64,000 bases of DNA, taken from NCBI GenBank assembly GCA_027922465.2, contig BQMF02000423.1, positions 186,001-250,000 of the forward strand. The letters are read 5' to 3'. The notes below the pieces were generated by a model, which searched no databases, was not told where the DNA came from, and saw only the letters and a program-made list of their open reading frames with translations. Both the position numbers and the translations under genes were made by a program. Source of the stretch: Turritopsis dohrnii (lineage: Eukaryota > Cnidaria > Hydrozoa > Anthoathecata > Oceaniidae). Shown here piece by piece: positions 8,083 to 55,332 of the stretch. How positions within the stretch are numbered: the first letter of the stretch is position 1; the number at the start of each line of letters is the position of its first letter.

Positions 8083-9348
8083 ATGAAGGTAAAGAAACTA
8101 CTGCTTCTCAAAAAAAAAATCATTATTTTAAGATTTTGTCAGCAGTTATTAATAACAGAACACCGAAGCAAAAAACGTATGTGGGTCCGAAAGATATACC
8201 AAGAAAGACTGCAAAAAGGTGAATTTCATCTTTTAGTGAAGGAGTTAATGCTGCATGACCAGGAATACTTTTTAAAAAATTTTCGAATGACACCATCAAT
8301 TTACGAAGAATTATTGGCATATATTGCTCCATCCATTGAGAAGGAAAGGAACGCAATGAGAGATCCAATTGGTGCGAGTGAGAGATTGGCAGTAACATTA
8401 CGATATCTCGTCACTGGAGATGCTCAGTGCACGATTGCCGCAAGTTATCGAATTAGTCCTTCCAGCGTATGCAGAATAATCGGTGAAACGTGTTCTGACA
8501 TATGGACATCATTAAAAGAACGTCATTATATGGACGTACCATCAGATGAAATAAAATGGAAACATGTCGCAAAAGAATTTGGTGATATATGGAATTTTCC
8601 GCATGTTGTGGGAGCAATTGATGGCAAGCACGTTGTCATGCAAGCTCCTCACAACAGTGGGAGCGAATATTTTAACTATAAAAAGACACATAGTGTTGTT
8701 CTACTAGCAGTCTGCAATGCAAGATACGAGTTTTTAATGGTTGATATAGGAGACTTGGGAAGGCAAAGTGATGGCAGTGTTTATAATAACAGTAATCTTT
8801 TAAGAATTCCAGGCCCAGAGAAGCTTCCGCACTCCGAATACGTGTTACCCTATGTGTTTGTAGGCGACGACGCTTTTGGACTGAAAACTCATATGATGAA
8901 GCCATTCTCTAACCAACATATTTCAGTTGATCAGAGAGTATTCATATACCGACTGTCAAGATCAAGGAGGACAATTGAAAACACATTCGGAATAGCAACA
9001 TCAAGATTTCGTATATTTCGAAGACCAATCATTGCTGATGTTAAAAAAGTGATAAAAATAACACAATCAGTAGTAGCACTGCATAACTTCCTGATGAAAA
9101 AGCAGGACAAATGTAATAACAGATATTGCCCTGTTAACTATGTTGATTCAGATGGGCCGTTAGGTTTAAGACCTGGTGATTGGAGAAGTGAAAGTTCCGA
9201 TTGTTCTGGATTGGTCAGGATGTCACAAGTATGTTCCAACAACTATTCAAAGGATGCTAAAGCAGTTCGAGAGACTTTCAAGGAACACTTTTGCTCTGCT
9301 GAAGGAGAACTTGAATGGCAAACAAGAACTGTAACCCGAGTGGTTTAA
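8083..9348 (+). CDS. PIF/Harbinger DDE transposase (HARBI1-like)
   Basis: An uninterrupted 421-residue protein, typical length for the family. The N-terminal third has the MWVRKIYQERLQKGEFHLL segment and helix-rich RMTPSIYEELL region. The catalytic DDE core shows Asp in VVGAIDGKHVVMQAPH, Asp in LGRQSDGSVYNN and Glu in SRSRRTIENTFGIATSRFRI, so all three acidic positions are intact. It cuts element ends in the nucleus and in this superfamily needs the Myb/MADF partner for nuclear import and end recognition. The start is the first ATG of the open frame. Likely still coding, although its partner gene is broken. Confidence 0.92.
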   Translation: MKVKKLLLLKKKIIILRFCQQLLITEHRSKKRMWVRKIYQERLQKGEFHLLVKELMLHDQEYFLKNFRMTPSIYEELLAYIAPSIEKERNAMRDPIGASERLAVTLRYLVTGDAQCTIAASYRISPSSVCRIIGETCSDIWTSLKERHYMDVPSDEIKWKHVAKEFGDIWNFPHVVGAIDGKHVVMQAPHNSGSEYFNYKKTHSVVLLAVCNARYEFLMVDIGDLGRQSDGSVYNNSNLLRIPGPEKLPHSEYVLPYVFVGDDAFGLKTHMMKPFSNQHISVDQRVFIYRLSRSRRTIENTFGIATSRFRIFRRPIIADVKKVIKITQSVVALHNFLMKKQDKCNNRYCPVNYVDSDGPLGLRPGDWRSESSDCSGLVRMSQVCSNNYSKDAKAVRETFKEHFCSAEGELEWQTRTVTRVV

Positions 9349-20333: not shown

Positions 20334-20396
20334 TCTTGTTGTGTGCAAAATGAGGGAGGTCATATCGAACATATGTTCTCTTGAATTATATATTTA

Positions 20397-20959
20397 CTAG
20401 TATCCCGGGTAAAAACTTTTTACCGAACTTAACTTCGAAAAGGGGATGGGTCAAAATCGCCTTTCCCGTGAACGATCCCCGTGATGAAAATTTCAATTTA
20501 GGAATTGGAAACGGAAAATGTAACTATGTTGTAGAGCTCGAAAAACTGATCAAAAAAATGTATGGGATCGTTTCGCTACGACCAACCGTTAGAGAGATAT
20601 CGCTGATCAAAGATTTCGATGACGTCATATCCGCAGTACCAAACAAAATTTAGGCCCAAATAATGCGTCACCCCATCACCCGTATTGCGGACCCCAAAAA
20701 ACGTCAGTTATCCCTATTGGTTCTCGAGATATTTCCCCAAAAACGTCGCGTTCGATTGTGGATGCAATGCAATGAATCCCCGTGATCATAAAAAAACTGA
20801 CGTCAAATGATGCCACGTGCTTTTGGAATGATCGTGAAAAAAGTGTCTCTCGCCTCTACGTGGTTTTACGCGCACATAAGAGGACGATGACCGTAAATTT
20901 AAACTAAATATATCACTCTCTAAAATAAAAGTGGTATGCACAATCGCGGATTATTATAA
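20397..20959 (-). mobile_element. non-autonomous Helitron copy A
   Basis: On the minus strand it ends with hairpin GGTAAAAAGTTTTTACC, then CGGGATACTAG before T. It shares over 500 bases with copies B and C. Its 5' terminus lacks the first five bases (TCTTA) and abuts the CTAG of the autonomous Helitron directly. No gene. Confidence 0.75.
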
Positions 20960-21225
20960 CTAGTATCCCGTGTAAAAATTTTTTACGGGCTTTAATTCTG
21001 AAAGTGACGTCTCAAAAACGGTGTTGAAAAATGACACTCGCCACTCATGTTCAGCCTGCGTTGTGTCATTGGTAAAACATTTGTGAGCATTTATCTTACA
21101 TTACTTATTATGTAATACAAAAGTACAATAAAATATGTTCATCAGAAAAGTGTATTAAATATTTGCTACGACATTTAAACAGCCATTTCATACATCATCG
21201 AACTTCAAACTAAGTTTGGAATTGT

Positions 21226-21606
21226 AAACTAAGCTGACAAAACCAAGCAATGAGATGGCACTCCATTAATCAGATCTGTAACCCAGTGTGCAAAATCGTC
21301 TAAAAATCACTGTGACGGAGAGCATTCTTAGTGAAATTGTGTGTAGATTTCTATAGAAATGCACTCCTTCGCAGATATTTTTTAATAAATGTGTTGACTG
21401 GGAAAGAACTAAAAATATGTATTTTCCAAATTGGAAAATTGGAAACTAAGCTGACAAAACCAAGCAATGAGATGGCACTCCATTAATCAGATCAGTAACC
21501 CAGTGTGCAAAATCGTCAATAATCACTGTGACGGAGAGCATTCTAAGTGAAATTGTGTGTAGATTTCTATAGAAATGCACTATTTCAGATATTTTTTAAT
21601 AAACGT
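21226..21606. repeat. direct duplication of about 165 bp
   Basis: The segment 21226-21392 is repeated at about 21442-21606 with small differences. Both begin AAACTAAGCTGACAAAACCA and end near ATATTTTTTAATAAA. It lies in the non-coding 3' region of the autonomous Helitron. Confidence 0.8.
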
Positions 21607-21609
21607 ACT

Positions 21610-23080
21610 ATAAATATTTTCAAAATTGTAAAATTTCTGTTCGACACTAATTCAACAATAATTGATAATAATTGATCAATGACAATAATTGATCGCCATC
21701 CATGGTCAGCATGCGTCCGGTTCACGAAAAATTAAATTAAGGAATTGGGTCCAAAAACTGATCAAAAATGTGTGGGATGGTTTTAACCCGGGTGAAACGT
21801 TTTCGAAAATGCTGACTATAAGGTTAAGCAAAAAATGTCATAGAATGATCAACAGGAACATAAATTCACATGAAAAACTGTTGACAATACTACACCAAAA
21901 AAGTATCCTAAGATAGCATAAACAAACAAATAAATAAATAAACGAAATGAAGGTTATCTTTAATCACTTTTGCAAAAGTGTATATCGACTTCGTTAACAG
22001 TCCTCAAATGCGTTTCGATGGTTTAATCCATTTATTCTTGGAAATAATAATTCTCGGTAGCGAGTGCATTGCATCTACGTACGCATGCAGTTGGAATTAT
22101 CGGATCTTCCGAAAAGTGAATTTTTAAAAATTGATGACATATTATTCGTAAGAGAAACCAAAGAATCTAAAAAAATAAATAAATAAAGTTAAGGTTGAAT
22201 TTAAAATCCGAAATGTGCAGCCGACATATATCTTTGAACTAAACTTTCATTCACAATTACCTTGACAATGCTATCTAGACTACAGCAGATACGGTTATTC
22301 ATAGGATACTGTCAAAAAAGGTTTTTCCCATGAACTACCAACACCAAGTTGACCTCAATACTATACTAAAAATCTAAAGAATCTGTATAAATATAAGTTA
22401 AAGATAATGAATTATCATCTTTTGTTTGTGTCAGCAGTTAATCAATTTTGTTAGTTAGGAAAGAAGATATGATTTATTTATTTACAGTTCGCTTTGTTAT
22501 TAATAAACAGCTGCTCGTTCCCAGCCAATTTCTCAATTGTTCTATTTCTGCTGACATCAGCATATTCCATTCATTATCTTTAACACACAGACAATAAGCT
22601 CTTTTTCCTCAATAAACTAAATGAACTAACTTTAAGGAATAGTAATCTCTCAAACTGACAAAGAAGTTTTCTCTTAAACCATAGCCTGTAATGTCATTTC
22701 ACAAAACATAGTGAAATAAAGATCAAAGAAAGTACGTAACAACTTTTATTCCAACTAAAAACAACAAATATTAACATATACAACGATGGTATGGAACTAC
22801 CATACACTGACCGTGAATAACTGATTAAATACCCTATGTTAGAAGAAGCTCTATAGTTTATTAGAAAAAGGAATTTCTACACCTTGTGTAACAGAATCGA
22901 TCTAAGCAAAAACAAAATTCTTAAAACACCTTATTAATGGGCAATGGGCATTAATCAACCATTCACAGGAGCATTTATTTAGACTTCTACCAGCCAAAGA
23001 TGTTTTCCAAAACGCAGAAAATTAACTTTAATGAAAAAGCTTGAGCTCTATGTACGGTAGTTCCATACCATATAAAAACT
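21610..23080. other. non-coding 3' region of the Helitron
   Basis: AT-rich with only short frames. AATAAA-like signals on the minus strand (for example near 22975) could end the transcript of the micro-exon gene. Confidence 0.4.
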
Positions 23081-23121
23081 CAACTATCTAAAATAAACAT
23101 TCTCAACGAAAAAATTTGTGT

Positions 23122-24513
23122 TTAACCCCGAATATTTAGGGATAAATGTTTTTTTTTTGATTTTTTTGATTTTTTTTTGTAGGGGGGACGGAACCCTTTG
23201 TGGTCTCGCCCCCCATTTTTTTTCCACACCCAGAACGCGCGGTTAGACCGCGGTCCTGGGTGGGTTTTTCGATACTGGTTGAAATCTTTTCGGGTCACTA
23301 TAATGTAAGAACAAAAAATGATTAGTAATAATTTAAGATTTAATTATTAATAGGTATCAATTAAAGGAATTACCACATAGACAGATATACTATTGACGCT
23401 GAGAATTAATATCTCCAAGAACAAACTCAATTGAGTTTTAACAGAAATATTTGTGTTACTTACAGTGGGTAGCTTGTTTAGCTTCCTTTTGTTCTAAAAA
23501 AGACAGCGAGGCATTAATTAACGAAATTACCACATAGACAGATTAAAAATGTGCTATTAAGGCTGAGAATTATTATATCCAAGAATAAATTCAATTGATA
23601 TTTATCAGAAATTTTTGTATTAGGGAAAAAATCCTTACTCTCCGAATTTTGGGTAGATGTTGTTGCTATAATATAAAAGAGAAACAGTATAAATACTACG
23701 TCTGCCAAAGTGCATTCACAGATCAACAGACTAATACGATGTTTTATGTAAAACAATTTATAACTCACAACTGCTGGGATCTTTAGCATCTAAACAGAAA
23801 GAATATTAGTAAGAATATTTCAATAGTGAACATGATAAGAGGTAACATGTATTAGAGAAAGAATCCTTACTTCTCAAATTTTGAACAGAAGTTGTTACTA
23901 TAATGGTAATAAGAGAAACAGTATAAATCACTTCATCTGTCAAAGTTAAATACATGTATTTAAGTAAAATGTTAAAAAGGAAAATATCAAACCATTTTCT
24001 GCAGCATTCCCTATGAATAAAATATAATGAAATTACAATAACATGACTGATAAGCAAAACTTGGCTGAATGAAAATAAGAAGTTACCTTCCCCCAGTAGA
24101 CCCTTCTCTTCTGAAATGAAAGGAGTAATTTAACATTCACCAATAGTAATTCTAAATGACACTAATGGTATTCTATTGAAGCAATAATTCCTTTTACCTT
24201 TGGGTGTTATTTCATCATTCTCTAAAATATAGAAGGTATAAATAGTCTTTTCTTTTACATTATTATATTTACAGTTTTATTTTGAAAACTTACCAGGTTC
24301 TTGAACTCCATCATGAAGCACTAAAATAGAATACATACTCAAATGGATTTATACTGCATTTAATAATTCCAATATATTGGAAAGCTCTATATACTTACTG
24401 GCTTCATCAGTTACATTAGGACCTGAAATAAAACAGTGAAAAATTAATTTTGTATTCAAAAACAACAGTATAAAAACATATAAAAAGCATTTACCTTCAC
24501 GTGCCACTGCCAT
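23122..24513 (-). CDS. predicted 11-exon micro-exon gene in the Helitron
   Basis: Minus-strand exons: 24495-24513, 24399-24422, 24294-24320, 24198-24221, 24087-24110, 23993-24010, 23871-23897, 23769-23789, 23639-23665, 23464-23493, 23122-23297. All nine internal exons are 18-30 nt, multiples of three, and phase 1 at both sides. Each has an AG acceptor, nearly always T-rich, and a GT donor (mostly GTAAGT-like; the sixth, GTTTGA, is weak). Introns are 72-166 nt. The sum, 417 nt, gives one open frame of 138 residues. It starts MAVAREGPNVTDEA, is acidic, then Ser/Thr/Gln-rich, and ends strongly basic with Trp and Gly (RAFWVWKKNGGRDHKGF, then KKKSKKSKKK). An acceptor-like TTTTTTTAG lies 29 bases before the ATG. 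No family recognised. It could be a host gene captured by the Helitron or a Helitron accessory gene. Confidence 0.65.
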
Positions 24514-24689
24514 TTTTTTTTTTTATTATAATTTTTAGTTCACTAAAAAAAGAAACAACTTAGAATTAATTTTCACAAAGGTAAAAGGATGAATGCCCTG
24601 ACTTTTGGTTCATGGATGGTGCATGCAAGAACTTTTCATATAATTGTTATTGCCACAAACAAAATTAAGATGCAAGAGACGAATGCATG

Positions 24690-24765
24690 CACAACCCATG
24701 GTAACAGAGTACACGACGTGAACGTAAGTCATTGGGACTTGTACTCCGCCTAAAAAACAAACATA
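24690..24765 (-). other. segment conserved between Helitron copies
   Basis: After an acceptor-like GTTTTTTAG the minus strand reads GCGGAGTACAAGTCCCAATG and more. A close match lies in the Helitron fragment at about 47633-47685. It sits between the RepHel stop and the micro-exon gene. It may be a 3' UTR exon or processing signal; its role is unknown. Confidence 0.45.
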
Positions 24766-25143
24766 CAGAAATAAACTGTTTTTTAGGCAAAATAGTTAAG
24801 TAACTATAAATGCATATCTTTACATCCATATTCAGCATTGCAACAAAGAAAATGTCATTGAATTAACAAATTAACACTATAATATCAATCATTAACAGTT
24901 GAGCAACAGACACTATAGGAAAACTCATGACAGTATATACTACGATATAAAAGTCATGACGCTATAGAGGAAAAGCTGCTTTTAAACAACTGCAATGCAA
25001 ATCACTCCCAAATGAGTGACGATACGATCAATGTACAACCGGAAACTGATATTTTTACTTTTCCGGTATCTTTGAAACTCATAATCCAAATCCTTTGCAC
25101 ATACCAAGTATATAGATGAAAACAAAAGATATGCAGAATTAAG

Positions 25144-28100
25144 TTACTGTAATACTTGTGGAAAGACAACATTTTGAGTATACATCTTTCCATTGATATA
25201 ACCTTGTTTCCCAGTAGCAGCAACTTTGATTTTCACATTATCAAATGCCTTTGCTCTGGAACATGCTACATATAGTTGACCATGAGAAAAGCACGGTCTC
25301 TGCAAAAACAAACCAATTTTATCAAATGTTTGACCTTGACTCTTGTTAATAGTGAAAGAGTAGGCCAAACGGATAGGCAATTGTCTGCGTTTCAATATAA
25401 AAGGCATACCTGTATCTGAAGGTGACAGTTCAACCCTAGGTATGAAAATGATTTCTCCAACTGCTGACCCTGTCAAAACTTCAGCTTTAATGAAATTATG
25501 AGATAATTCACGAACAATCAAGCGGGTGCCATTACAGAGACCTTTTTTGATGTTCAGATTCCTCAAAAGCATAATAATAGCCCCAACTTTAAGTTTCAAA
25601 CAATGTGGAGGCATACCCGAAGGTGTTATGCTGTTCAGAAAATCAAGCGGATAATTTTGCCGCTCATCTTCATTGTCACATACCACTTCATCAGCACTGT
25701 AATAACAAACTGCCTCTCCTTGCAATCTTTCCAACACCTCATTGTTAATGATCAATGATTGCTCGTTTGTTGGTGTCAGAATGGCTGTTGAGGCGTATTC
25801 GTGAGGTTCCAATCCGTCATACATCACCGATATAATTGAAGTGTTGTGGGGAACAACGCAACAATCAGGGATTTCGATAGAACCCTTAGCCGGTTCATTT
25901 TGTTTTGTTGGCAGTTCACCATTACCAAGTTGTAATAACCAAGCACAGAATTCTTGTTCTTCCGGCCTGGCTCTCATGTTCTCAGTAAGTGAGTATTTTA
26001 CCACTGATGCCCATATAGCAGAACTTGTCAAGCAAACTTCAATAACATCAGTTGGCTTTGCTTTCTTCACAACTGGCAGACACTGACGAAAATCTCCACC
26101 CCATAAAAGTACCTTTCCACCAAAAAGTGCGTCACTGCCGCAAATGTCACGAAGCAGTCTGTCGATAGCATGAAAAATGTGCGTAGAAACCATTGTGGCT
26201 TCATCAATCAGAAACAGGTCAATACTGCGAAGGTATTCCGCATGTTTAGATGTCGGCGTTATGTTACATACACTGTTTTCTAAAACAGGAACAGGCAATT
26301 GAAATAAGGAATGCAATGTACAACCACCAAATAATAAAGTGGCTGCAATACCTGTGAATGCAGCAGTAGCAACTTTCCAACCTCTGGCTCTACATGCTGT
26401 AATAACATAGTTATATGTAAATGTTTTACCTGTGCCAGCTGGTCCATCCAGATAAAATAATGTTTCAAGTTGTGCTAAACCATTGCGCACATTTGAAACA
26501 GCAGACAAAATCGCATCTGCAACAACTAACTGCTGTTCGTTAAGCTGAGGCCTTACCTGCTGGGCCCTGTCAATGTAAATATTCACATCGACTTCTTCCT
26601 CAGGGATCTGCTGAACCAATTCTGGAAGATTAAATTGTGTTAACGACATACCAAATTGTTTTAGGACATTATCAATGTAACCCAAAAGCCTTTGCTCTGC
26701 TTGAGCAACAGCCAATGTTCGAGCGTAGTCCTCACACAGATGCCCCTTGAATGTATTCCACAACTCGAGAGGATTGGAGGGTTCGCAGTGTGTCAAAATC
26801 GTGACAAACAGTTGTCTAAGCTGTTGAGGCATCTGAAAGGTTGATGCTTCTTCCAATGTATTGTGCCACTCTTCGTCATCTTGTAGAAGAGCTCTGGCAG
26901 TACACGCTTCTCGGAATGTGTCGTAAACCACTCCATCAAAAGTACGCAGATATTCGAATAAAGTAGCGCCTGGAACATGCAGCAACAAAACTCGAAGGAA
27001 AAATCGTTCTCCTTCTGACGGTCGTGCATTATATAACCGAGCGACTATAGGCTTTAATGTTCTTTTTCGTTTTTGCCATTTTTTCTCTTTGCCATGGAAG
27101 ACATAATGATACGGAATATCTGAGTAAAGATACTGCCGAGCATCAGGATCTTCTACATTTAGTTTAAACCATGCTGTAAGGTGACTATCATTCAATGCCC
27201 CTTCAGCAGCTTCCTCTTCTTCGCCAGCTCTAAAATAAACTTGATGACGATCAGGTAAATGAACAGCTAATCGCTTAATAGTATGCGATTTTTCATGCAT
27301 AGAGAACTCAAATATTCTCCATAATGCTTCGGGCGCACTAACATATCGAGCATCCAGAAACGTTTTTATTTCGTCATGTTCCAAACGTTCATTAATCTCG
27401 ATATTAGCACGATCATGTCCTTTGTAAATGTATTTAAAGAGATACTTTACACTTTTGATTGTGGTACATGCTTCCAAATTGATATGAGCATTATACTTCT
27501 TGGACAACCACGGACAGTACGGAACTACCCATTGATTATCTAAGTCCACATTTCTTACTCTCACTGTACGGCCATTGTTACGTCTGCGATACAGTGGATA
27601 CCCATTTGCATTCATTTGGGTTGCTTCACAAAATCGTTTTGGGAAATCCTTGGTGCAGTTGCCATCATCTCCCATACAAACTGCATTAGGGTTAGCATTC
27701 CCACAGGGACCATGAATCATACATGACTTGATGATATTATGAAGTTCAGGTTCCTGTTCAGGATCTGGTATTTCAGCAGAAATTAAGCTGTCGATGTCAT
27801 CAGCATTACGCAGTTTATCCTCTTGTGCTAAATGGATAAGAATATGAGCATGAGGTAAAGAACGTTTCTGAAATTCAATAACATACAAATGGGAAATGGC
27901 TTTCCCCAAAACACCATTTTTATTAATGTCCTCCAAAAGTGCTTTTAATTTCAAATTGAAAACACGTGTAATCAAACCAGGACGATAATGTGCAGGCTCA
28001 TTATCTAAGTTTTCTGTGATTTCCTTCCATTTTGGATTACAGGTAAATGTGCAAAACAAATCCGGTTTGCCCATTTTAGTTACCATGGCCATAGCATCTT

Positions 28101-29654
28101 GATAATTCTGTTGCATGGCCCTTGGACCACCCTGAAAAGAAGAAGGAAGAATCACTGGTCTGCCTGCTTGAAGGCCACGGTTTTCTGCAACATTTTCAAG
28201 ATAATCAATGAGCCCTTGATATTGCTCAACCCGGAAATTACCCTGATTTCGACGAATGTAATTAAGACGGTCGGACTCAACTTTGCAGTAACAATCTTCA
28301 GCAAATTGTTGAAGTAATCTTTTACCTTTTAAGATGGGGCTAAAAGCATCTCTAAATGCAAATCTATAAGTATAATATTGCAACATGGTAGTACGACAAT
28401 GCTGGCCTGTTGCATATTCTGCTACATGAGGAATGTGAGAACTCCAACCCAACTCTCCTCTTGGAAAAAATACAGTATACACCATTGGATCAAGATTAGG
28501 TGAATGAACAGGCAAATCCTGCAATGGTCTATCTCGAGGGTAAACAACAATGTCTCGAGCCAATGGTGGTGCACCATCTTCACCAACTAAAACAGCAGCT
28601 ACTTCATCATGATGAGGTAGATTGTATCGACGCCTGTCACCACCACTTCTCAAGTGCATTCTAACCTGAAAATCAAAAGCAAATTATCAAAAGCAGTTGA
28701 AAGATCAGTCTTTAGTAAATATCTATTTCCACTTACCTCAGATGGGCGGCGATTTTGTTCATTTGCGCAACGCAGTTCCTCTGCTTCTACCTCACTCATG
28801 TGTTTATAAGCAGCTGCATAAGGACTCTCCCGTAAAATGATATCTTGCAAAGTTTGCATGACTTCCGGGGAGCAACCTTGATTTTCTGGTCTTGCCATTC
28901 GCTCGTTGAATGCATCCATACCATCATAAATATATAGTTGACCATATGATGGAGGAACACCCGGCGGTGGGTGTAAATTACCTGTTCGGTGACATACCTG
29001 GCCATTGATACGAAAAACTGGTGGACCACGACCTGGTGGTACAGCCAATTTCGCACCCATAGAAGCAAAAGCAACCGAACTGTTAAACTTTCGAATATTT
29101 TCTTGAAAGTTCTTTGCTTGATTGTTATCACCTACTAAAAGATCTTTAAGGTCATTAGGATAATAAATGTTATCTAAATGAACTTTACCATTGTGACAAC
29201 ACTTAAAATTAGTTTCCTCAGCAAACATCCTGGCACCACAAAACTGACAGACTTTGTCCATGGCACCAAGATAGTGTAGCTCAGGTAGTTGGTCTTGCCG
29301 AGCAACACGATGCAAGGGTTGATTAGCACGCCTAGCCCTCATGCGATGGACATTTGCATTTCGACGGGCTATTCTTTGACCGTCACCTTCAATTTGACGA
29401 TACTGAACACGTCTTTCAGCATTATTGATTCGAAGTCGTTCATTTTCTGATGCGACATGCCGAATATCTGGTGGTTGAATATTAATGTTTTGCTGAAGCT
29501 GTTGCCGCCTTGCCTCAGCCACATCCTCATGTGCATGCCGACGCTGAATTACAGAGCGTATTTGCTGCTGATCAGGTGGCTGGAGCACAAACTGACCATT
29601 CCTAAAAACTGCTTGGAAGCCAGGAATAATATTAGTGCCTCTTATATTAAACAT
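25144..29654 (-). CDS. Helitron RepHel protein (HUH Rep endonuclease-PIF1 helicase)
   Basis: Two exons, 28737-29654 and 25144-28665, joined across a 71-base intron (GTAAGT...TTTTCAG) give 1479 residues with no damage. The first ATG (MFNIRGTNIIPG) follows an acceptor-like TTATTAG. The N-terminal zinc-binding motif is CQFCGARMF...CCHNGKVHL. The Helitron N domain and Rep core have the HUH pair in SLPHAHILIHL (near residue 579) and the tyrosines in VKYLFKYIYKGHD (near 714-720). The PIF1-type helicase shows Walker A DGPAGTGKT, Walker B LFLIDEATM, GGDFRQCLPVV, FTINKSQGQTF and LYVACSRA. Rep nicks and joins the ends and the helicase unwinds during rolling-circle transposition. It looks functional. 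Confidence 0.95.
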
Positions 29655-29699
29655 CACAGAGTTTAGAAACACTAATAACAAAAGAGAAAGAAATAGCTA

Positions 29700-30709
29700 C
29701 CAACTGTGAATAAACAGCACAAATCTAGGCAGAAGCATAAGGAAACTAATACAAAATAAAAAGAAATGTCGAAACTGTGATAATAATCTTCAACAAACCT
29801 TTCTATCTAAGAAGAACTAACTTCTTCTTTTGAAAATAAACTGGAAAAAACGAACCTGGAATGCAGATAAAAAACGTGTTAGAAGACAGAAAGAGCAATA
29901 GGTTTTAAACATAAACAAAGGATAAACAGTTCTTATAAACAAAGGATAAACAGTTCTTAGGAACGCTGGGGATAAACACGGAAAACCGCCGTAAAGTTTA
30001 CCATTTTTAAATTATTATGAAAACAAATAAAGAGATCTCACCTCGTTGACGTATATTTTGCAAGTATATATAAACAAAACCTGTCTCTCGATCATCAACA
30101 GGGCAGCAACCACAACAAACTGTACAAACAGAATGATCTATTTAAAAAAATAATCATCATGCATTATCCAGTAAGTAGCCTATTTTTAAATTTTAAACAA
30201 ACGGTTTACCTAAATCTTTGGAAAATACAAACAATGTATACAAACAATATATTGTTTCGCAAGCGTCCTTACTGGAAAATTAAAAATTAATTTGTTTATG
30301 TTCTGAACGAATTGGTTGCTATAGTTTGCCCGATTCTGGAAAACAATTTTGATTGGTTCAAAAGCATCACGTCAATCAAAACAATCAAAATAAATCAAAA
30401 TAAATGCGCATTGTATAGGTTTCCCGAAAGAAACGTCACACTTAGATGACGTATCATGTATACGTGTATGCTGATTACGTAACTTTAAAAAGTGTCTCTC
30501 GGCCTCTACGTAGTTTTATGCGCATTGTGTTGGTCTCCCGAAAGAAACGTCACACTTAGATTACGTAACATAAAAAAAGTGTCTCTCACCTCTACGTGGT
30601 TTTACGACGAAAAGGGAAAAAATAAGAAGGTTTTGACCGTGAGAAAAAAACAAATATATCACTCTCTAAAAGAAAAGTGGTATGCACAAAGCGAATTAGT
30701 ATATATAGA
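29700..30709 (-). promoter_or_regulatory. Helitron 5' non-coding region
   Basis: About 1 kb upstream of RepHel, with no ORF. It holds two tandem versions of a segment AAGTGTCTCTC.CCTCTACGT near 30488-30600 and the family box ATATATCACTCTCTAAAA next to the 5' terminus. Presumed promoter and 5' transposition signals; inferred from position. Confidence 0.45.
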
Positions 30710-31274
30710 CTAGTATCCCGGGTAAAAACTTTTTACCGAACTTTACTTCGAAAACATTAGGTCAAATCCACTATTTCCCGTGCACGTACCCCGTGACGAA
30801 AAAATAAATCATAGAATCGCAACTCAAAAGTGTACCCATGTTGTAGAGCTCGAAAAGCTGATCAAAAAAGTGTATGGGATCGTTTCGCCACGACCAACCG
30901 TTGCGGAGATATCGCTGATCAAAGATTTTGATGACGTCATATCCGCAGTACCAAATAAAATTTAGGCCCAAATGATGCGTCACCCGGTCACCCGTATCGC
31001 GGACCCCAAAAAACGTCAGTTATCCCTATTGGTTCTTGAGATATTTCCCCAAAACGTCGCGTTCGATTGGGGATGCAATGCAATGATTCCCCGCGATCAT
31101 AAAAAACTGACGTCAAATGATGCCACGTGCTTTTGGAATGATCGTGAAAAAAGTGTCTCTCGCCTCTACGTGGTTTTACGCGCACACAAGAGGATGATGA
31201 CCGTAATTTAAAACTAAATATGTCACTCTCTAAAATAAAAACCGGATGCACAATCGCGAATTAGTATAATAAGA
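30710..31274 (-). mobile_element. non-autonomous Helitron copy B
   Basis: Read on the minus strand it starts TCTTATTATACTAATTCGCG after an A and ends with hairpin GGTAAAAAGTTTTTACC and CTAG at 30710, which touches the TC of the autonomous Helitron. It is 565 bases, very similar to copy A throughout. No gene. Confidence 0.8.
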
Positions 31275-35552: not shown

Positions 35553-36524
35553 GGCATATAAGAAAAGTGAGACCTGATACCCTTAGTGATACCCGAGACC
35601 CGATACCCTAATACCCGATACCCTGATACCGATACCCTATGTCTGAGACCCGAGACCCGATACCCTAGTACCGATACCCGAGACCTGAGACCCTATTTTT
35701 CAATTTTTTAATATGGTTAATTATCATGGGGAAAAATTGAGATTTAACATGAAATTCAAACAAGTAGTTGATTTATTACATAAATGTTCCACTATACATC
35801 TATACATGTCGCTTTCAAAATTCTTAAATGTTGCTGACTCAAGAATGGTTTTAAATCTACGGGAACTACTATCATACTTGCATGGAATAATTTATTTCGG
35901 TTGCCCAAACAAGCATGGTTGAAATGATAATAAACTTTTTTGAACTCGTTTGAAATTGTTGGCTTTTTAGTTTGTGGATCTACGTATGTTCGTTTTGTTT
36001 TTGACACTACGATCAAGTTTTTCACGTCGCCGATTAAAGCATCATTTTCAAACTTTCCTCCGCAACCGTAACAAGTTGCTACATTTTTATGAGCTAGACT
36101 CAAAAGGTACAACACATAACCATTATCTGCAGGGGCTGGTGGAGCTGACTCTTGCAATGTTGTTGTAGATGTTGGTTGATTCGCAGTAGATGCCATTGTG
36201 AAAGGTTGGGATGATGAGGTAGATGATGGAGTGGTAATAATTGTGCAATTAACTAATTGTTGCGTTGCTAAAGATGTTGTGATCGGTGGGCTAAAAGTTG
36301 GATTTACCAAATTGGTGATGGGAATTTTTTTAGCATTAGCAGGCCCCTTCCTTCTCTGCGTCGCTTTGATCTTTTTCTTGCCAGCGTTTTTTATTATCTA
36401 TCTCATCGAAAAAAAATCAAGGTATCGGGTCTCGGTACTAGGGCATCGGGTCTCAGGTCTCAGACATAGGGTATCGGGTCTCGGGTATCACTAAGGGTAT
36501 TGGGTCTCACTTTTCTTATATGCC
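35553..36524. mobile_element. small MULE-like element with telomere-like TIRs
   Basis: The outer ends GGCATATAAGAAAAGTGAGA and TCTCACTTTTCTTATATGCC are inverted repeats, and the 10-base sequence TCAAGTTGAC lies outside both (35543-35552 and 36525-36534). Each TIR, about 120-140 bases, is built of degenerate GATACCC and GAGACCC units. The TSD length suggests a Mutator-type element. Its interior holds one gene on the minus strand. Confidence 0.75.
35792..36310 (-). CDS. Cys-zinc-type protein in the telomere-like TIR element
   Basis: A 172-codon frame. The first 60 residues are Ser/Thr/Pro-rich linker. The rest is a compact domain: CYGCGGKF, LIVVSKTKRTYVDPQTKK, KKVYYHFNHACLGNRNKLFH and VPVDLKPFLSQQHLRIL. 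Cys-x2-Cys plus H/C pairs suggest a zinc-binding fold of the kind often seen in cnidarian and mollusc mobile elements. The open frame continues upstream of the first Met through a basic segment (KNAGKKKIKATQRRKG) to about 36385, so the true start may be an earlier exon. Probably binds the element's DNA; function not established. Confidence 0.5.
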   Translation of the reverse strand: MVNPTFSPPITTSLATQQLVNCTIITTPSSTSSSQPFTMASTANQPTSTTTLQESAPPAPADNGYVLYLLSLAHKNVATCYGCGGKFENDALIGDVKNLIVVSKTKRTYVDPQTKKPTISNEFKKVYYHFNHACLGNRNKLFHASMIVVPVDLKPFLSQQHLRILKATCIDV

Positions 36525-37938: not shown

Positions 37939-39358
37939 TTAAGTTTTTTTTGTACGGCGGACGTGATCTAACTGCCATGACAAACTTCCTTCTTCTGAGT
38001 TTACATAACTTTTCAAATTTTCACGCATACGAATAGCGTCAGCTGTATACCTGGATCCTCTTATGTTTTGCACCTTTTGAAAACAGCAAAATTTTCCTTC
38101 ACTTTCAATGTCAGATCTCCAATGTCCAGGTCTAACTTTGCCGGTAGAATCTTCCGAGTCGACGAATCCTTGCGGCGAATAAAAAGCATTATCTGTCAGC
38201 CGTAAGTAGTTATGTAAGGCCAAACATGCTAAAACATACTTCTCGGCATTTTCAACTGACGACTTGATGGGTTTGTGAAAGATTCTCCATCTTGAACACA
38301 AGATACCAAAAGCATTTTCTATCGTTCTTCTTGCACGAGAATGCCGATAGTTATAGACCTTTACATCCTCCATTAATAATGGACCAGCGTATGGTCTCAT
38401 CAGCCATTTTTTCAGAGGAAATATTTCATCCCCTAGCAGGTAAAATGGTAAAGGTTCATTGAACCCATTGTGTGCTTTACTCCTTGGCAGATTGAGAAGA
38501 TCATCTTCAAACATCTGACCCATCTGTGAGTGCAGAAGCACACCACTATCGTTGTTACTACCGTACTGTCCCACGTCAAAAATGGAAAAGCAATAGTTTG
38601 CATCGCAAACAGCAAGCAGAACAAGGCTGAAGAAACCTTTGTAATTGAAATACTGCGAGCCTGTATGCTTTGGGCATTCAATTCGTACATGTTTACCATC
38701 AATCGCTCCGATTACATGTGGCATATCCCATCTACTTTCAAAGTTTTCCGCAATTTTTAACCAGTCGTCTTCAGTTTGTGGCGGAGTTAAGTATTCTGCT
38801 AGCAAAACTTCGTAGATTGCCGTACAAGTTTCACTTATAATTTGTGATAGTGTTGATTTACCAATACGAAATGAGTAGCAAATTGATTGCTGAGCATCGC
38901 CAGTTGCCAGAAATCGAAGGGTTGCAACCAGCCGTTCTTCCGCGGATATTGATTTCCTCATATTAGTGTCTGCTTTTTGGATAAAAGGACCGACTTTCCT
39001 CAAAAGATTTTCAAATCTCTCAGGTGACATTCTGATGTACCTATATAATAACAAGAAAAGTTGGTCTACATCATTTTTCTGAATTTCAGAATCTAACAGT
39101 TTTTTTTATTTTTATAGAGGATTCTTTCCCAAGATGAGTTTATCCTCAAACAAACAAAACAGTAAAACTATACCTGAAAAAATATTCTCTATCACCTAAC
39201 TTCATCTCTTGGAATAGTTTATGGTAGTCTCCGTACTGCTCCCTCTTTTCAAATATTTTTCTCACCCACTTTCTTTTTTTTGACTTTTCATTTTCATTAT
39301 CTCTTCGCCTTTTCCTTGAGCGAACTAGAAGAAGCGTTCCCAAAGCGATATTCTCCAT
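37939..39358 (-). CDS. PIF/Harbinger transposase of element 2
   Basis: Exons 39174-39358 and 37939-39040 (intron 133 bases, GTATAG...TATATAG) encode 428 residues with no damage. It has basic N-terminus (SRKRRRDNENEKSKKRKW), KWVRKIFEKREQYGDYHKLF, and a DDE core with Asp in IGAIDGKHVRIECP, Asp in NNDSGVLLHSQ and Glu in RARRTIENAFGILCSRW. The start at MENIALGTLLLV avoids reading into the TIR. With its partner gene broken, this copy may depend on MADF proteins from other copies. Confidence 0.92.
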
Positions 39359-47559: not shown

Positions 47560-48118
47560 GTAAAAATCATGGAGAGATAATACGGAGCATGCCCTGAGTT
47601 GCTCACAAAGTCTCCTTCAGGAACATTTCATGGTAACGGAGTACATGGCAAGAGCGTAAGTCAATGGGACTTGTACTCCACCTAAAAAACAACAAAATAT
47701 ACAAACTCTTCATTAGGTACTAAGTTGCCAAGCAACAATGATTTCAAGTGAACATACCAAATGTTAATAAGCCACAACAACAACAACTACTGCTGTAGCC
47801 ACTACTGTAGGTATTTAAACTACACTTATAATAAGCCCCAACATCAATCAGTTGCTGACGTACAGAAGAAGCCACAACAACTCAACAGCAGCCACTACTG
47901 TAGGTAGTTAACGTTATCATATTATTAACTGCATAGGCCACAACAATCACGACACGTGTGGAAAGACAACATTTTGAGTATACATTTTTCCATTAACATA
48001 ACCTTCCTACCCGTACTGGCAACTTTGATTTTAACATTACCAAATGCTTTTGGCCTTAACTGGCAACATACAACTGTCCATGTGAAAAACTAAGTCTCTG
48101 CAAATACAAACCAATTTA
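47560..48118 (-). pseudogene. Helitron RepHel 3' fragment
   Basis: The sequence 47950-48118 matches the C-terminal coding end of the RepHel gene (25147-25320), and 47633-47700 matches its downstream region (24700-24765). Indels and stops are present. A decayed copy of the same Helitron family, in the same orientation as the autonomous one. Confidence 0.7.
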
Positions 48119-48502: not shown

Positions 48503-50329
48503 TGTTCAATTCAATTCAATTTATTTGCCAAAGATTACATGATTGACGACTTATAAAAGGCTAGGAACCCTACCCCATATAGTCGAGACTAATCTCAGGT
48601 GGCTTCCTGAGTATAACAAAATACAACAAAAAATTTTGGAAAAACAAAAAAAGCAAAACAAAAATAAAAAAAATAAATAAAAAACAGTTTCATAGAATAA
48701 ATTAAAATAAAATAATGCCAGTAACCTGTATATGGTCAGGTAAGAAAAATCTTAGTAATTAGCTTAATAGTGATGATTTAACAAGTGATTTAAATTTACC
48801 ATAACCAAGCATGGAAAGGTTTGTGTCACCATGCTGCATTTGAAGAACATTCCAATTGAGAATTGAACGATAACGAATTGACTACAAACCATACAAAGTA
48901 TTTCTGACGAAAGGTCTAATTTGAATTCCAATTGAATGACCCCTGGTTCGCTGAGACTCACTAAGGAAACTTAGACCAAGAGTTTCTTGAATACTTGAGC
49001 GAGAGGTTTTGTTAAGACTTTGATGTACAAGATTTAGTCTGAGAAAAAACGGTATCTTTAAACTCAAGCATTTTAAAAGCTTTAAACAGAGGTTTAGTGT
49101 GAGCAAGAAAATGAGTGAGAAATAAGTCGGATGCACTCTTTTGTTGAAGAAAGATTCTTGAAGAGACAGAAGGAGATTGACCCCATACAAGAGCAGCATA
49201 ACTTAAATATGAATTAAAAAGAGCATAGTAGATTGAAGTAAAAATACTAGGAGGAAGATAATGTTTGAGAATGCTGATGATTCCATTAGCATGACTAAGT
49301 TTAGCACTAACATTGGTTAAATGAAAAGAAAAAGAAAGCAAGTCATCAACAATCACCCCAAGATATCTAACATGTGATTTAAATTTAAGTTCAGCGCCAT
49401 TCAGGATCAATCTAATGTCAAGATGGACTGTTTTTCTAGGATTCTTAAAGAGGAGGGCTTTGGTCTTTGCTATATTCAAAGCAATTTTGTTTGCATTCAG
49501 CCAATCTACCAGCTTAACCAAATCATGATTGATTTGATTTTCTAAGATCAAAGGACTCTGATCAGAGTATAAAACACTAGTGTCATCTGCAACAAGACAG
49601 CATTCGCCAAATTCAAAGGCATTAGGGATACCATTTATACATATTAGAAAAAGAAGCGGACCAAGGACAGAGCCTTGAGGTACACCATATTCAACATCTA
49701 GAGAAGATGAGACATTATCAAGAATAGAAACAAACTGCTTCCTACCAATAAGGTATGAACGAAACCATTGATTAGTGATACCCCTAACTCCATTAAAATT
49801 AAGTTTTGCCAGAAGAATTTCATGGTCCACAGTATTAATAAATATCCCACAACTTAGCTCACCAAGATCAAGAGCGGATCGTATTTGCTCTGTAAGATTA
49901 CAAGGGCGTGCACAGTGGAGTATTTGGCTCTAAACCCAAATTGATTTTAAAAAAATAAATTGTTTGTATCAAAAAAAAAGATGCAAGTCGTGAATGAACA
50001 AGTTTCTCAAATATTTTGTCAATATTTGAGAGTAGAGAGATAGGACGGCAATTGGTCGCATCAAATGGAGAACCTTTGTTTTTGAAGACAGGAATAGCTT
50101 TGGCGATTTGAAAAAAATTCATTAAAATGATTATAAAATAAATTAGGATCAGATGTTTCATTACCATTGATATTTAGAGTTAAGCTAGTGGAGGCACTTT
50201 TATTACGAATATTAATTATATCTTATATGCCATTCCATATCTTTTTAGAGTTTTAGTATTGTTAAAGAAATATTTTTTATAATAACTAAGTTTACTTAAT
50301 CGTAAAAGAGAAACTGTATTATTTCTATA
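48503..50329 (-). pseudogene. LINE ORF2 3' half: reverse transcriptase and tail
   Basis: RT motifs on the minus strand in order are AIPVFKNKGSPFDATNCRPI, SLLSNIDKIFEKLVHSRL (50100-49990), then YGVPQGSVLGPLLFLICING and CCLVADDTSVLYSD (49700-49560) with both catalytic Asp kept. The thumb and C-terminus follow in shifted frames. It ends in a 3' UTR and short tandem tail of TTGAA units (on the minus strand) at 48503-48520. That tail type and the PHD-EN-RT order suggest a CR1/L2-clade LINE. Several frameshifts and stops; inactive. Split from its 5' half by Helitron C. Confidence 0.8.
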
Positions 50330-50965
50330 CTAGTATCCCGAGTAAAACCTTTTTACCCAACTTAACTTCGAAAACATTAGGTCAAATTCACCATGACCGT
50401 GTATGTACCCTGGGACGAAAAAATAAATCATAGAGTTGCAACTCAAAAGTGTAGCTATGTTGTAGCGCTTGAAAAACTGATCAAAAAAGTGTATGGGATC
50501 GTTTTGCTACGATCAACCATTGCAGAGATATTGTTGGGAAAGATTTTGATGACGTCATAGCCGCAGTACCAAATAAAATTTAGGCCTAAATGTTGCGTCA
50601 CCCCATCACTCGTACCGCAGACCTAAAAAAACGTCACTTATCCCCATTGGTTATATTGGGGATGCAATGCAATGGTTCCCCGTGATCATAAAAAAAACTG
50701 GCGTCAAATGATGCCACATGCTTTTGGAATGATCGTGAAAAAAGTGTCTCTCGCCTCCACGTGGTTTAACGTGCACATAAGAGGACGATGACGGTAAATT
50801 AATTATCCAGTAACTTCTCGGAGAGGAAGGAGCATTACAGATAAGTACAGATTCGATCTTCTGCTGTGTACAAAGAATGATACCAAATCGAAACTCTTTG
50901 TGACTATCAAACGTATAGATGAGTTGCAAAAAAACTAAAAACTAATAACCTAAAAAGAGCATCAA

Positions 50966-52585: not shown

Positions 52586-53938
52586 ATGGATAGCGACGAT
52601 GTTATTCTCGTTGCTTGTGCCACTATAACTCTGGGTTGTGCTATTGAAATGCATTCTGATTGGTCAAAAGTCGGTAAAAAAAGAAAACGGAAGGTGTGGA
52701 TGAAGGATTGGCTTCGGGAGAGGGAGTCCAAAGGCGCCTACTCCAACATTCTTCAGGAATTACGCCTACGAGACCAAGAAAACTTTAGAAAATACTTGCG
52801 TATGAATACAACAACTTTCGAGGTAATTTTTTTTAGCGATTTTGATACGCTTAATTTTATTTATTTTTAGATGCTGGTCAATGAAATCGCACCAATTATC
52901 ACAAAGAAAACAACATTAATGCGTCGACCAATCGACCTAGAAATCAAGCTTGCCATTACTTTAAGGTTTCTTGCAACTGCAGAGTCTTATGAAAGTTTGA
53001 TGTATCAATTCAGGGTTCACAGCAGCACCATTGCAAAATTTGTTCCATTTGTTTGCACCAAAATTTATGAAACATTCAAGGAAAGATTTATGAGATTGCC
53101 AAATACTGCAGAGGAGTGGGAAATAATTGAACATGAAACACACAGAATGTGGCAATTTCCAAATTGTATTGGGGCTGCTGATGGAAAGCATGTATCAATG
53201 ATTCATCCCTCAAATAGTGGCTCTGAATTTTATAATTACAAGGAATTTTTTTCGATAGTTTTACTAGCAATAGTTGACTACGATTATAAGTTTGTTTTTG
53301 CTGATGTTGGCTGTCAAGGCAGAATTAGTGACGGAGGAGTTTATCGAAATAGTTTCTTCTATCGTGCCACCCAAGAAAATCTCCTAGATCTTCCACCCGA
53401 TAAGCCTTTGCCTTCCTCGAATAATCCATTTTACGACAGTGAAAATTCCGAGCCAATGCCATATGTTTTTCTTGCTGATGACACATTTCCACTAGGCAAG
53501 CACTGTCTCAAACCCTATGCACAAAATGGCTTAACACCAATCAAACGAATTTTTAATTACCGTTTATCAAGGGTCCGCAGGGTTACAGAAAATGCTTTTG
53601 GAATATTAACAAATCGATTTAGGGTTTTCACTACTAAAATATGTTTAAATCCAGACAAAGCCACTATGATCACTTTGGCAGCATTGGTGCTACACAACAT
53701 GCTTCGTCAGCATTCTTATGAATCCTATACACCGGAAGGTTTCATCGACTTTGAAACAGAAGTTGGAGATGTTGTAGGAGGAGAATGGAGAGATGGAAAC
53801 ATTGGGGAGTCCGTATTCAAAAGTTTACCGAAAAGCGATACCCGCAACGCTTCGAAGAACGCCCAGCTTATTAGAGATTCCTTTGCTAATCATTTCTGGG
53901 GACCTGGTCAGATTCCCTGGCAATGGAAAATGCTTTGA
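52586..53938 (+). CDS. PIF/Harbinger transposase of element 3
   Basis: Exons 52586-52822 and 52871-53938, joined over a 48-base intron (GTAATT...TATTTTTAG) in phase 0, give 434 residues without damage. It has basic VGKKRKRKVWMKDWLRERES near the N-terminus, then a DDE core with Asp in IGAADGKHVSMIHPSN, Asp in QGRISDGGVYRNS and Glu in RVRRVTENAFGILTNRFRVF. All catalytic positions are present and the length is normal. Likely active together with the convergent DNA-binding partner. Confidence 0.92.
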
Positions 53939-54058: not shown

Positions 54059-54120
54059 TTAAAATCCGTTATATGATCCAGAATAACTACCATTTGGTGA
54101 ACTCAAAGCCGAAAGTGGCG

Positions 54121-54158
<38 letters not shown>

Positions 54159-55332
54159 GCAAATGAATTATTATAGGCTGGATTCATAGGAGATGAATAG
54201 GCCATTGGTGGTTCCATTTGTGGAGTGGATGATAGCGCCTTTACCTGTCTTTTACATCTTAAAACCATTTGTTGCAGGGTAATCTTTAAATCATCCTTCA
54301 AGTCGCATTCTGGTATAGCCTTTAATTGATCGATTAAGCATTTACCAAAGGTTTCATCCGTGTTTTCGTTATTTTGGGGGACATGTGAGTTTTTGTTCGA
54401 GATTACAGATTGTATTGCTGTTGCAGCTGGGCTCATTATTTTTTGCAACTCTGTTTGATTGGACAAGACTATTTTCTTCGACGATTTGGCGGAAGGGCGT
54501 TTTGCATTTACATACGGCGTGTCATCGTCTTCTTCAATAGCATTACTTTTGGTTTTTCGTGGCGTAAAAGCATCACTTACAAATTCTAATTTTTCATAAA
54601 ACTTCCACACACTCACATAAACGTAGTCACTACCAGCTCCGCTTGTTTTTGAACCTTCCGTCATCCTTCTTTGGCCGCCGTAGTAATTTTTTAGGTCTGT
54701 AAGTTTTTTTGTAATTTGCTGTGTTGTAGCTTCAATATCACTGTCTTTTAGAACTCTTCCTATAGCTTCCATAGATTTTTGACGCAGATCTCTATTGAAA
54801 TACGATCTGTTCTTGGTGTTATAAAGGTTCTCGTGCTGCGACCAAAGTTCTATCAAAATTTCAACCTCCTCGTCCATCCAAGACCGAGTTGCATCATTCT
54901 TTTTTTTCGTCTGACGTTGCTTTTTGGGTTGTTGACTCTTCTTTCCAGTCGGATATTGTTCAATATCCAGTCGTTTTCCGTAAAACGTCATCTCCGTTGT
55001 CCTCCGTAATGTCATCTTCATTCAATTTCTCGCCAGTGTCCTCTTCAATCGCCCTAGAATAACAATAGCAATAAAAAGGAATAAGTATACATACTCTATT
55101 TTTGTAGAAAGAGACTTGATTTATTTTCATGCAAGTTAGGGTACATTTATGTTAATAAAATTCCAATTTATTAAAAATTACTTACTGGTTATTATCTTCC
55201 TGTCGCTGTTGTTTTTCATAACTTTCTCTCAGCCTCTGATATTGTTGCTGGTGAAACAAATAATCATTTTGCATTTGATCCTGCGAAGGCTGGGATTCAA
55301 TATCATTCACAACAAATCTGCTACCTTCCATT
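54059..55332 (-). pseudogene. Myb/SANT-MADF-like partner gene of Harbinger 3
   Basis: The main frame 55021-54059 encodes a trihelix-type domain (RSWMDEEVEILIELWSQHEN ... QQITKKLTDLKNYYGGQRR), a nuclear-type linker, a C-terminal helix (LKDDLKITLQQMVLRCKRQV) and a Pro-rich tail. A first exon (about 55181-55332, MEGSRFVVNDIESQPSQDQM) has a good donor GTAAGT, and an acceptor TTATTCTAG lies near 55054. However, the frame joined this way meets a stop near 54970, so there is a one-base shift or an alternative start at 55021. The Pro tract is encoded by a run of about 34 G on the plus strand. Confidence 0.75.
54124..54157. repeat. poly-G tract of about 34 bases
   Basis: An uninterrupted G run on the plus strand inside the coding sequence, where it encodes polyproline. 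This is an extreme homopolymer in an AT-rich genome, prone to slippage and to G-quadruplex formation. Its exact length may be uncertain in the assembly. Confidence 0.95.

Follow-up and report, generated by a model that had tools for sequence, protein, structure and literature searches.

The minus strand of the window (the whole 64-kb stretch of DNA analyzed here) carries, at 24513-23122, a predicted spliced gene that, judged from its sequence, is almost certainly real and that very probably serves a family of Helraiser-like Helitrons as an accessory gene. Nine internal micro-exons of 18-30 nt, all in phase 1-1, join a 176-nt last coding exon to give a frame of 138 codons (Table 1); the exon total of eleven refers to coding exons only. 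In the titles and the opening parts of abstracts of openly accessible papers, no micro-exon gene was reported for a Helitron; next to the accessory domains described for Helitrons in the passages considered below, the gene represents a new type.

Structure of the micro-exon gene

Micro-exons supply 222 of the 417 coding bases (stop codon included) and the last exon supplies 176, i.e., most of the coding sequence lies in very small, symmetric internal exons. T content is 20% in the micro-exons and 44% in the introns. Two acceptor-like sites lie 5' of the ATG, one close to exon 1 and the other in the spacer that separates the gene from RepHel. The weak donor of exon 6, GTTTGATAT, retained its GT in 30/30 copies, and after the lysine tract the frame of the window copy differs from that of many other copies. 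The initial annotation had proposed this eleven-exon structure within an autonomous Helitron; its coordinates, exon lengths, phases, 176-nt last exon and 138-codon frame were all reproduced exactly, and the Helitron looks autonomous, with an intact Helraiser-like RepHel on the same strand.

Table 1. Features of the Helitron and of its predicted micro-exon gene (positions in the window).
Feature	Position	Strand	Details
Helitron, about 9.75 kb	20960..30709	-	5' end TC (30709-30708); 3' end at 20960, with an imperfect hairpin and then CTAG
Frame with N-terminal RepHel exon	28650..29681	-	matches Helraiser residues 17-305, E 3.3e-42
RepHel intron	about 28737-28666	-	donor and acceptor read in the sequence
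RepHel main exon	25144..28659	-	intact 1171-aa frame; Helitron_like_N and PIF1 helicase (Pfam)
Non-coding spacer between RepHel and micro-exon gene	24690..25143	-	acceptor-like TTTTTTTAG (AG at 24751-24750); conserved block 24787-24697
Coding exon 1, ATG	24495..24513	-	19 nt; in-frame stops directly 5'; acceptor-like AG at 24544-24543
Micro-exon 2	24399..24422	-	24 nt; splice model and copies
Micro-exon 3	24294..24320	-	27 nt; splice model and copies
Micro-exon 4	24198..24221	-	24 nt; splice model and copies
Micro-exon 5	24087..24110	-	24 nt; another in-frame acceptor 3 nt downstream
Micro-exon 6	23993..24010	-	18 nt; weak donor
Micro-exon 7	23871..23897	-	27 nt; duplicate partner of exon 9
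Micro-exon 8	23769..23789	-	21 nt; splice model and copies
Micro-exon 9	23639..23665	-	27 nt; duplicate partner of exon 7
Micro-exon 10	23464..23493	-	30 nt; position varies among copies
Last coding exon	23122..23297	-	176 nt, stop codon included; encodes a basic domain that is conserved, T-R-x-x-F-x-x-Y-R-K-x-H-P-G...W-x-x-N-G-G
Candidate poly(A) signal, AATAAA	22974..22979	-	one of five such motifs listed

Since every internal exon is symmetric, any one of them could be skipped without loss of frame. The symmetric micro-exons might therefore exist for the sake of alternative splicing, giving many protein variants per Helitron as has been proposed for schistosome micro-exon genes (MEGs), and a subfamily that has lost an exon is indeed still in frame. 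However, the retention of AG and GT at nearly all exons is equally expected under constitutive splicing, and exon symmetry may stem from growth of the gene by exon duplication; we consider it unlikely that the generation of isoforms accounts for the architecture.

The host Helitron

Pfam searches, together with Helraiser matches in both exons, identified the HUH Rep and the PIF1-type helicase that characterize a Helitron, and the RepHel main exon matched Helraiser (7lcc_A) with 1146.6 bits over 7-1170. The ends likewise agree with those of a Helitron (5' TC, 3' hairpin and CTRR, insertion between A and T): the element has a 5' TC, a 3' hairpin and CTAG followed by T, although few copies bear on the 5' end. 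The 100-base stretch that contains the 3' hairpin folded only somewhat better than shuffles (z -1.74). Among six places fetched for other 3' ends, CGGGATACTAG was exact in four and carried one change in a fifth. A further Helitron-like start followed directly in four of the five, an arrangement that the window also shows. Similarity continued beyond CTAG in several copies and ended at CTAG in L076. The 5' end was present in two of six fetched places (L077 and L081), and in L081 similarity began at the TC.

Non-autonomous Helitron-like elements, 79-89% alike, occupy 20387-20959, 30700-31269 and 50315-50802, two of them adjoining the autonomous element end to end. Because such elements adjoin both of its ends, the true Helitron unit could be longer than Table 1 indicates. 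Its 3' non-coding part also holds two direct repeats of about 170 bp, 94% alike, at 21220-21606.

The micro-exon gene has the same orientation as RepHel and begins about 630 bp past its stop; the spacer between the two is itself strongly conserved. Across 26 of 30 copies, mean pairwise difference was 0.009-0.013 in three stretches of the spacer vs. 0.079 at RepHel synonymous sites, i.e., about eight times less. The conserved block of the spacer was also kept in six divergent copies that were aligned and in a decayed relic. RNA folding of the block gave z values of 0.20 (window) and -2.51 (relic), and for either sequence a branched hairpin can be drawn. The relic itself (47560-48117, minus strand) belongs to a more distant Helitron, in which a RepHel C-terminus with stops is followed by the block and then by a stretch that is possibly the counterpart of micro-exon gene exon 1.

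Copies of the gene and linkage to RepHel

Copy searches were performed on one genome (435.9 Mb, 891 contigs). A search with the gene region found 362 candidates, of which 40 were scored and yielded 57 matches. The 30 best copies, among them that of the window, were read. In all 30, the lengths of exons 1-9 were identical; GT was present at 266/270 donors of exons 1-9 and AG at 238/240 acceptors of exons 2-9. Exon 10 was more variable, being 30 nt in 26/30 copies, absent in one and a longer stretch with an added unit in three. The frame was open through exon 9 in 29/30 copies, and the RepHel C-terminus lay upstream in 29/30, in some with frameshifts. When copies at least 99% alike were merged, the 30 were reduced to 17 clusters, and the lengths of exons 1-9 were kept in 17/17. 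Exon frameshifts as frequent as intron changes, which the initial annotation had named as evidence against such a gene, were not seen; rather, no indel type was found in the 211 nt of exons 1-9 vs. 15 in the 664 nt of introns 1-8 over the 30 copies (one-sided p 0.016).

Linkage was also followed from RepHel. Of 3407 candidates, 39 full-length RepHel copies were scored, that of the window being one of them; the others were 95-98% identical, and 29/39 had no stop. In 36/39 scored copies, the micro-exon gene followed downstream in the same orientation at a distance of no more than 4 kb, as judged from 150 last-exon places and 5 of the 57 DNA places. One of the remaining three has a divergent gene copy, bringing to 37/39 the copies that carry the gene, and two hold its 5' part only: one ends after exons 1-2, and the other keeps exon 1 with the rest deleted. 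Thus, at least the start of the gene was present behind RepHel in 39/39. The last exon on its own gave 150 scored matches of 785 candidates, with 56-96% identity to the 72-aa query. In some cases a single insertion may have been assembled as two loci, e.g., L053 and L054, which lie at nearly the same offset on two contigs, and L019 and L020, which are 99.98% alike.

Looked at from the gene, RepHel was not found upstream of two (L023 and L066) of the 38 copies checked. L023 (contig C347) is a gene copy 90% alike over 1297/1461 bases that has a different spacer and no RepHel upstream. These two copies, the lack of any family match over the cut-off for the gene, and the capture of host sequence described for Helitrons (PMC6431247) would be in keeping with a passive cargo, i.e., a host micro-exon gene captured once and merely carried along. 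Cargo, however, would be expected to decay, whereas this gene was present in 37/39 scored RepHel copies with its frame and splice sites kept, and it is common to subfamilies whose last exons are only 50-67% identical to the query. Moreover, no single-copy host gene was seen, RepHel having been checked for part of the 150 last-exon places. We therefore regard passive carriage as improbable. Between the two origins that the initial annotation had left open, an accessory gene of the Helitron gained ground as a family-wide trait, whereas a one-off capture lost it. The micro-exon gene looks like a working tool of the transposon.

Subfamilies and the gain and loss of exons

Eight divergent copies have a last-exon domain 50-67% identical to the query, and RepHel lay upstream in seven of them with 94-98% amino-acid identity. 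Gene models were built over L001-L068; the anchor was present in 67/68, 44 models were distinct, and some were plainly wrong (L010, L038 and L047). With no multiple-of-three rule imposed, 353/381 internal exons in these models were multiples of three (shuffles 145/448). Most subfamilies have nine internal exons. Ten were found in L028-L030, which have an added exon, eight in L057 and L060, and seven in L061-L063, while the better models of the L064-L068 group have six or seven, a number on which two model sets disagree.

Exons 7 and 9 are duplicates that include flanking sequence, and the intron that follows exon 9 is found again downstream of exon 10. In one subfamily (L044, L045 and L050-L054; seven places, two of them perhaps one locus, of which three were aligned), exon 7 has lost its acceptor by deletion and exon 8 has a broken one, for which the model uses an internal AG to yield a 12-nt exon; the frame is kept. 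Micro-exon units were thus duplicated together with introns and lost through splice-site decay, with the frame intact. Frame and splice sites recurred even where exon DNA was only 57-75% identical. Across seven representative models, 34 columns were invariant, the majority of them within the last-exon portion. Much of the sequence of this orphan accessory gene changes while its exon architecture persists, and its many copies in one genome amount to a natural experiment on how a micro-exon gene grows, diversifies and loses exons.

Selection

Rates were compared over 26 of the 30 copies, four having been dropped. The initial annotation had suggested asking whether synonymous sites evolve faster than nonsynonymous ones, and they do: mean pairwise pN/pS was 0.039/0.099 in exons 1-9 and 0.013/0.079 in the last 300 RepHel codons, the nonsynonymous rate of the micro-exon gene being about three times that of RepHel. 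Introns (0.014-0.055) varied less than the synonymous sites of the gene, and variation in the DNA after the gene (22900-22000) was 0.077-0.115. Since the introns and most of the spacer are slower than synonymous sites, something non-coding is also constrained.

Variants found in at least two copies numbered 12 synonymous, 18 nonsynonymous and 0 stop in the micro-exons (N/S 0.44, p 0.024) and 61/37/1 in RepHel (N/S 0.18), indicating that the micro-exon gene is under weaker constraint than RepHel. Singletons, in the same order, were 7/16/2 (N/S 0.75) in the micro-exons and 104/352/17 (1.00) in RepHel. Over the 17 merged copies, shared micro-exon variants were 8/14/0 (N/S 0.51, p 0.10), which is not significant; when L010, L012 and L023 were also dropped (14 merged copies, L015 having already been merged), they were 8/12/0 (N/S 0.44, p 0.06). 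The singleton N/S of RepHel fell from 1.00 to 0.45 in this 14-copy set, and the former value therefore owed much to a few decayed copies.

Comparison of the window with L061, which belongs to another subfamily, gave pN 0.195/pS 0.667 for the last exon and pN 0.387/pS 0.646 for the micro-exons, vs. pS 0.116 and pN 0.004 for RepHel; the RepHel values of two pairs with L064 were discarded (L064 has a frameshift). Purifying selection at the codon level is thus clear between subfamilies and modest among close copies, and the weaker signal among close copies is offset by the linkage to RepHel, the keeping of the frame and the signal between subfamilies. Selection on the protein does not by itself account for the pattern, because pS of the gene is also high (0.667 vs. 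0.116 for RepHel), and exchange of RepHel or of the micro-exon gene between lineages is likely. Within duplicate units, exons were less alike than introns (67% vs. 91% and 58% vs. 85%; p 0.005 each). This contrast is small and points only tentatively to faster evolution of exons than of introns. Intron and synonymous rates together suggest slow introns rather than fast synonymous sites.

The slow spacer and introns and the modest codon signal among close copies could also mean that the region acts as a DNA or RNA structure in which small exons are incidental. We consider this very improbable, since indels spare exons 1-9, nonsynonymous change is below synonymous change between subfamilies, and a frame with splice sites recurs at exon DNA identities as low as those given above.

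Test for a chance assembly of splice signals

A chain test was run with simple splice matrices and with cut-offs set at the lowest values among the nine exons, a choice that is partly circular. It found 9 open symmetric micro-exons in the 1.46-kb region, while the longest chain elsewhere was 3 (64 kb, both strands) and 1000 shuffles gave at most 4; at the second-lowest cut-offs, the gene region gave only 4, elsewhere 2 and shuffles 2. The loosest cut-offs yielded 15 candidate exons of 12-45 nt in the gene region, 10 of them symmetric and open. At acceptor -1.5/donor 1.84 there were 9 candidates, all symmetric and open, which corresponded to eight of the nine exons plus the alternative-acceptor form of exon 5.

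A spliced-path finder that imposed no multiple-of-three rule, and whose composition term was derived from the micro-exon gene itself, returned the same exons with a score of 108.9, vs. 23.2 for the best of 200 shuffles. Paths were found in 195/200 shuffles and averaged 2.3 exons; 145/448 of their internal exons were multiples of three, and 17/195 paths consisted of multiples throughout. Without the composition term and exon penalty, the path gained an extra upstream exon, and a 66-nt exon replaced exon 7. AT-rich DNA abounds in AG and GT and the best path changes at these two places once the composition term is off, but a chance joining of splice-like signals by the reader has a negligible probability, since neither the shuffles nor the remainder of the window yielded such a chain and the structure was kept across copies (30, or 17 after merging).

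Protein product and proposed role

The predicted 138-aa product has 12 acidic and 3 basic residues among its first 45 and 2 acidic and 20 basic among its last 58, in agreement with the acidic-to-basic modular protein described at the outset by the initial annotation. It contains no cysteine, and its N-terminus, MAVAREGPNVTDEA, shows by eye no hydrophobic stretch such as a signal peptide would have. Searches with the protein and with a family of seven gave no match over the cut-off in Pfam and no match in PDB. Weak hits were taken as chance: Polysacc_deac_1 (E 0.051) and Protamine_P2 (0.26) in Pfam, FYTT at 0.017 and a PHROG at 0.0016 in one of seven members each, and PDB entries at 1.9 and 5. 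A single-sequence model of the last exon predicted two helices (mean pLDDT 72) and gave no PDB fold match. Viral contigs held no relative of the 138-aa protein, RepHel, a 25-base pattern or the family alignment; bacterial and archaeal genome contigs (pattern and alignment) and plasmids (DNA) likewise held none, and these collections say little about animals. As Pfam (over the cut-off), PDB and fold searches gave no match, any function ascribed to the gene is an inference.

We favor, as the more probable account overall, an accessory gene of the Helitron that codes for a small protein with an acidic and a basic half. The gene would probably be transcribed downstream of RepHel on the same strand, either as part of the RepHel transcription unit or from a promoter of its own in the conserved spacer. 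Some cnidarians trans-splice, and if the host does so, the micro-exon gene could be a second cistron. The spliced product would be a small protein whose N-terminus, encoded by the symmetric micro-exons, is acidic and probably disordered and whose conserved C-terminal domain is basic. This protein may be nuclear, its basic domain binding nucleic acid or chromatin, and it may aid transposition or blunt host silencing. A nuclear, nucleic-acid-binding helper is put forward tentatively, and an arms race of the product with host silencing is more doubtful. Phase-locked micro-exons might allow the variable half of the protein to be rebuilt as exons are duplicated or dropped. On a reading that we hold to be speculative and rather unlikely, the micro-exon cassette would be a device for evolvability, its units being duplicated, diverging and being dropped, so that a protein for anti-silencing or host adaptation is remade, perhaps with combinatorial isoforms. 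The variable half of the protein would then be remade while the replicase stays almost constant, and, if this were true, the gene family would to our knowledge be the first transposon-encoded micro-exon gene family.

Comparison with known systems

Helraiser is not known to encode anything besides RepHel. The RepHel described here is related to that of Helraiser over nearly its whole length, and the two elements share a 5' TC, a 3' hairpin and CTAG, but the present Helitron family adds a second, multi-exon gene. Accessory domains described in Helitrons and Helentrons include RPA, OTU, AP endonuclease and a VTD deubiquitinase (PMC6431247; PMC9741609). These, too, are extra functions carried by autonomous rolling-circle transposons; they are, however, recognizable and mostly lie within the RepHel protein, whereas here a separate, orphan micro-exon gene is found.

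Schistosome MEGs, as outlined in three sources, have most of their coding sequence in very small symmetric exons and show exon duplication and high dN/dS (PMC10526429; PMC4350168; PMC8293314). The likeness to MEGs that the initial annotation had drawn holds for the architecture but not for the kind of gene: MEG products carry a signal peptide, which is not evident here by eye, and the present gene lies in a transposon. MEGs are, moreover, described as apparently restricted to platyhelminths (PMC4350168), and the COX1 of this genome (contig C880) does not read as that of a flatworm. A good reading is obtained with TGA=W, AGA=R and ATA=I, a code that we take to fit a non-bilaterian animal; provided that the contig belongs to the host, the latter is likely a cnidarian. 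On the same contig (L069 and L070), COX1 occupies two frames that meet at one point and are followed by unrelated-looking, GC-rich frames, possibly an assembly fault or the end of a linear genome.

Aphid bicycle genes have many micro-exons, nearly all of one phase, and very fast protein evolution; their exons are phase 2, their products have CYC motifs, they are linked to salivary glands and gall formation, and the parts of the source considered here do not describe them as transposon genes (PMC9168663). The internal exons of the present gene are phase 1, not phase 2. The CYC (Cys-Tyr-Cys) motif is likewise absent from its cysteine-free product, and on these two grounds the gene does not count as a bicycle gene. 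The gene brings together two puzzles, namely which functions some animal Helitrons require in addition to RepHel and why genes built of micro-exons turn up repeatedly in fast-evolving families.

Other features of the window

Three open DDE_Tnp_4 transposase frames, which we take to be Harbinger-like, and a MADF/Myb-like frame occupy 8083-9348, 37939-39054, 52871-53938 and 54059-55021. The MADF/Myb-like frame adjoins the third DDE_Tnp_4 frame and contains a 34-base G run that reads as prolines. A tandem repeat of the GATACCC/GAGACCC type lies at 35569-35696, with a related array on the opposite strand nearby (36421-36490), and a frame at 62771-63424 matches the P2RX7_C domain.
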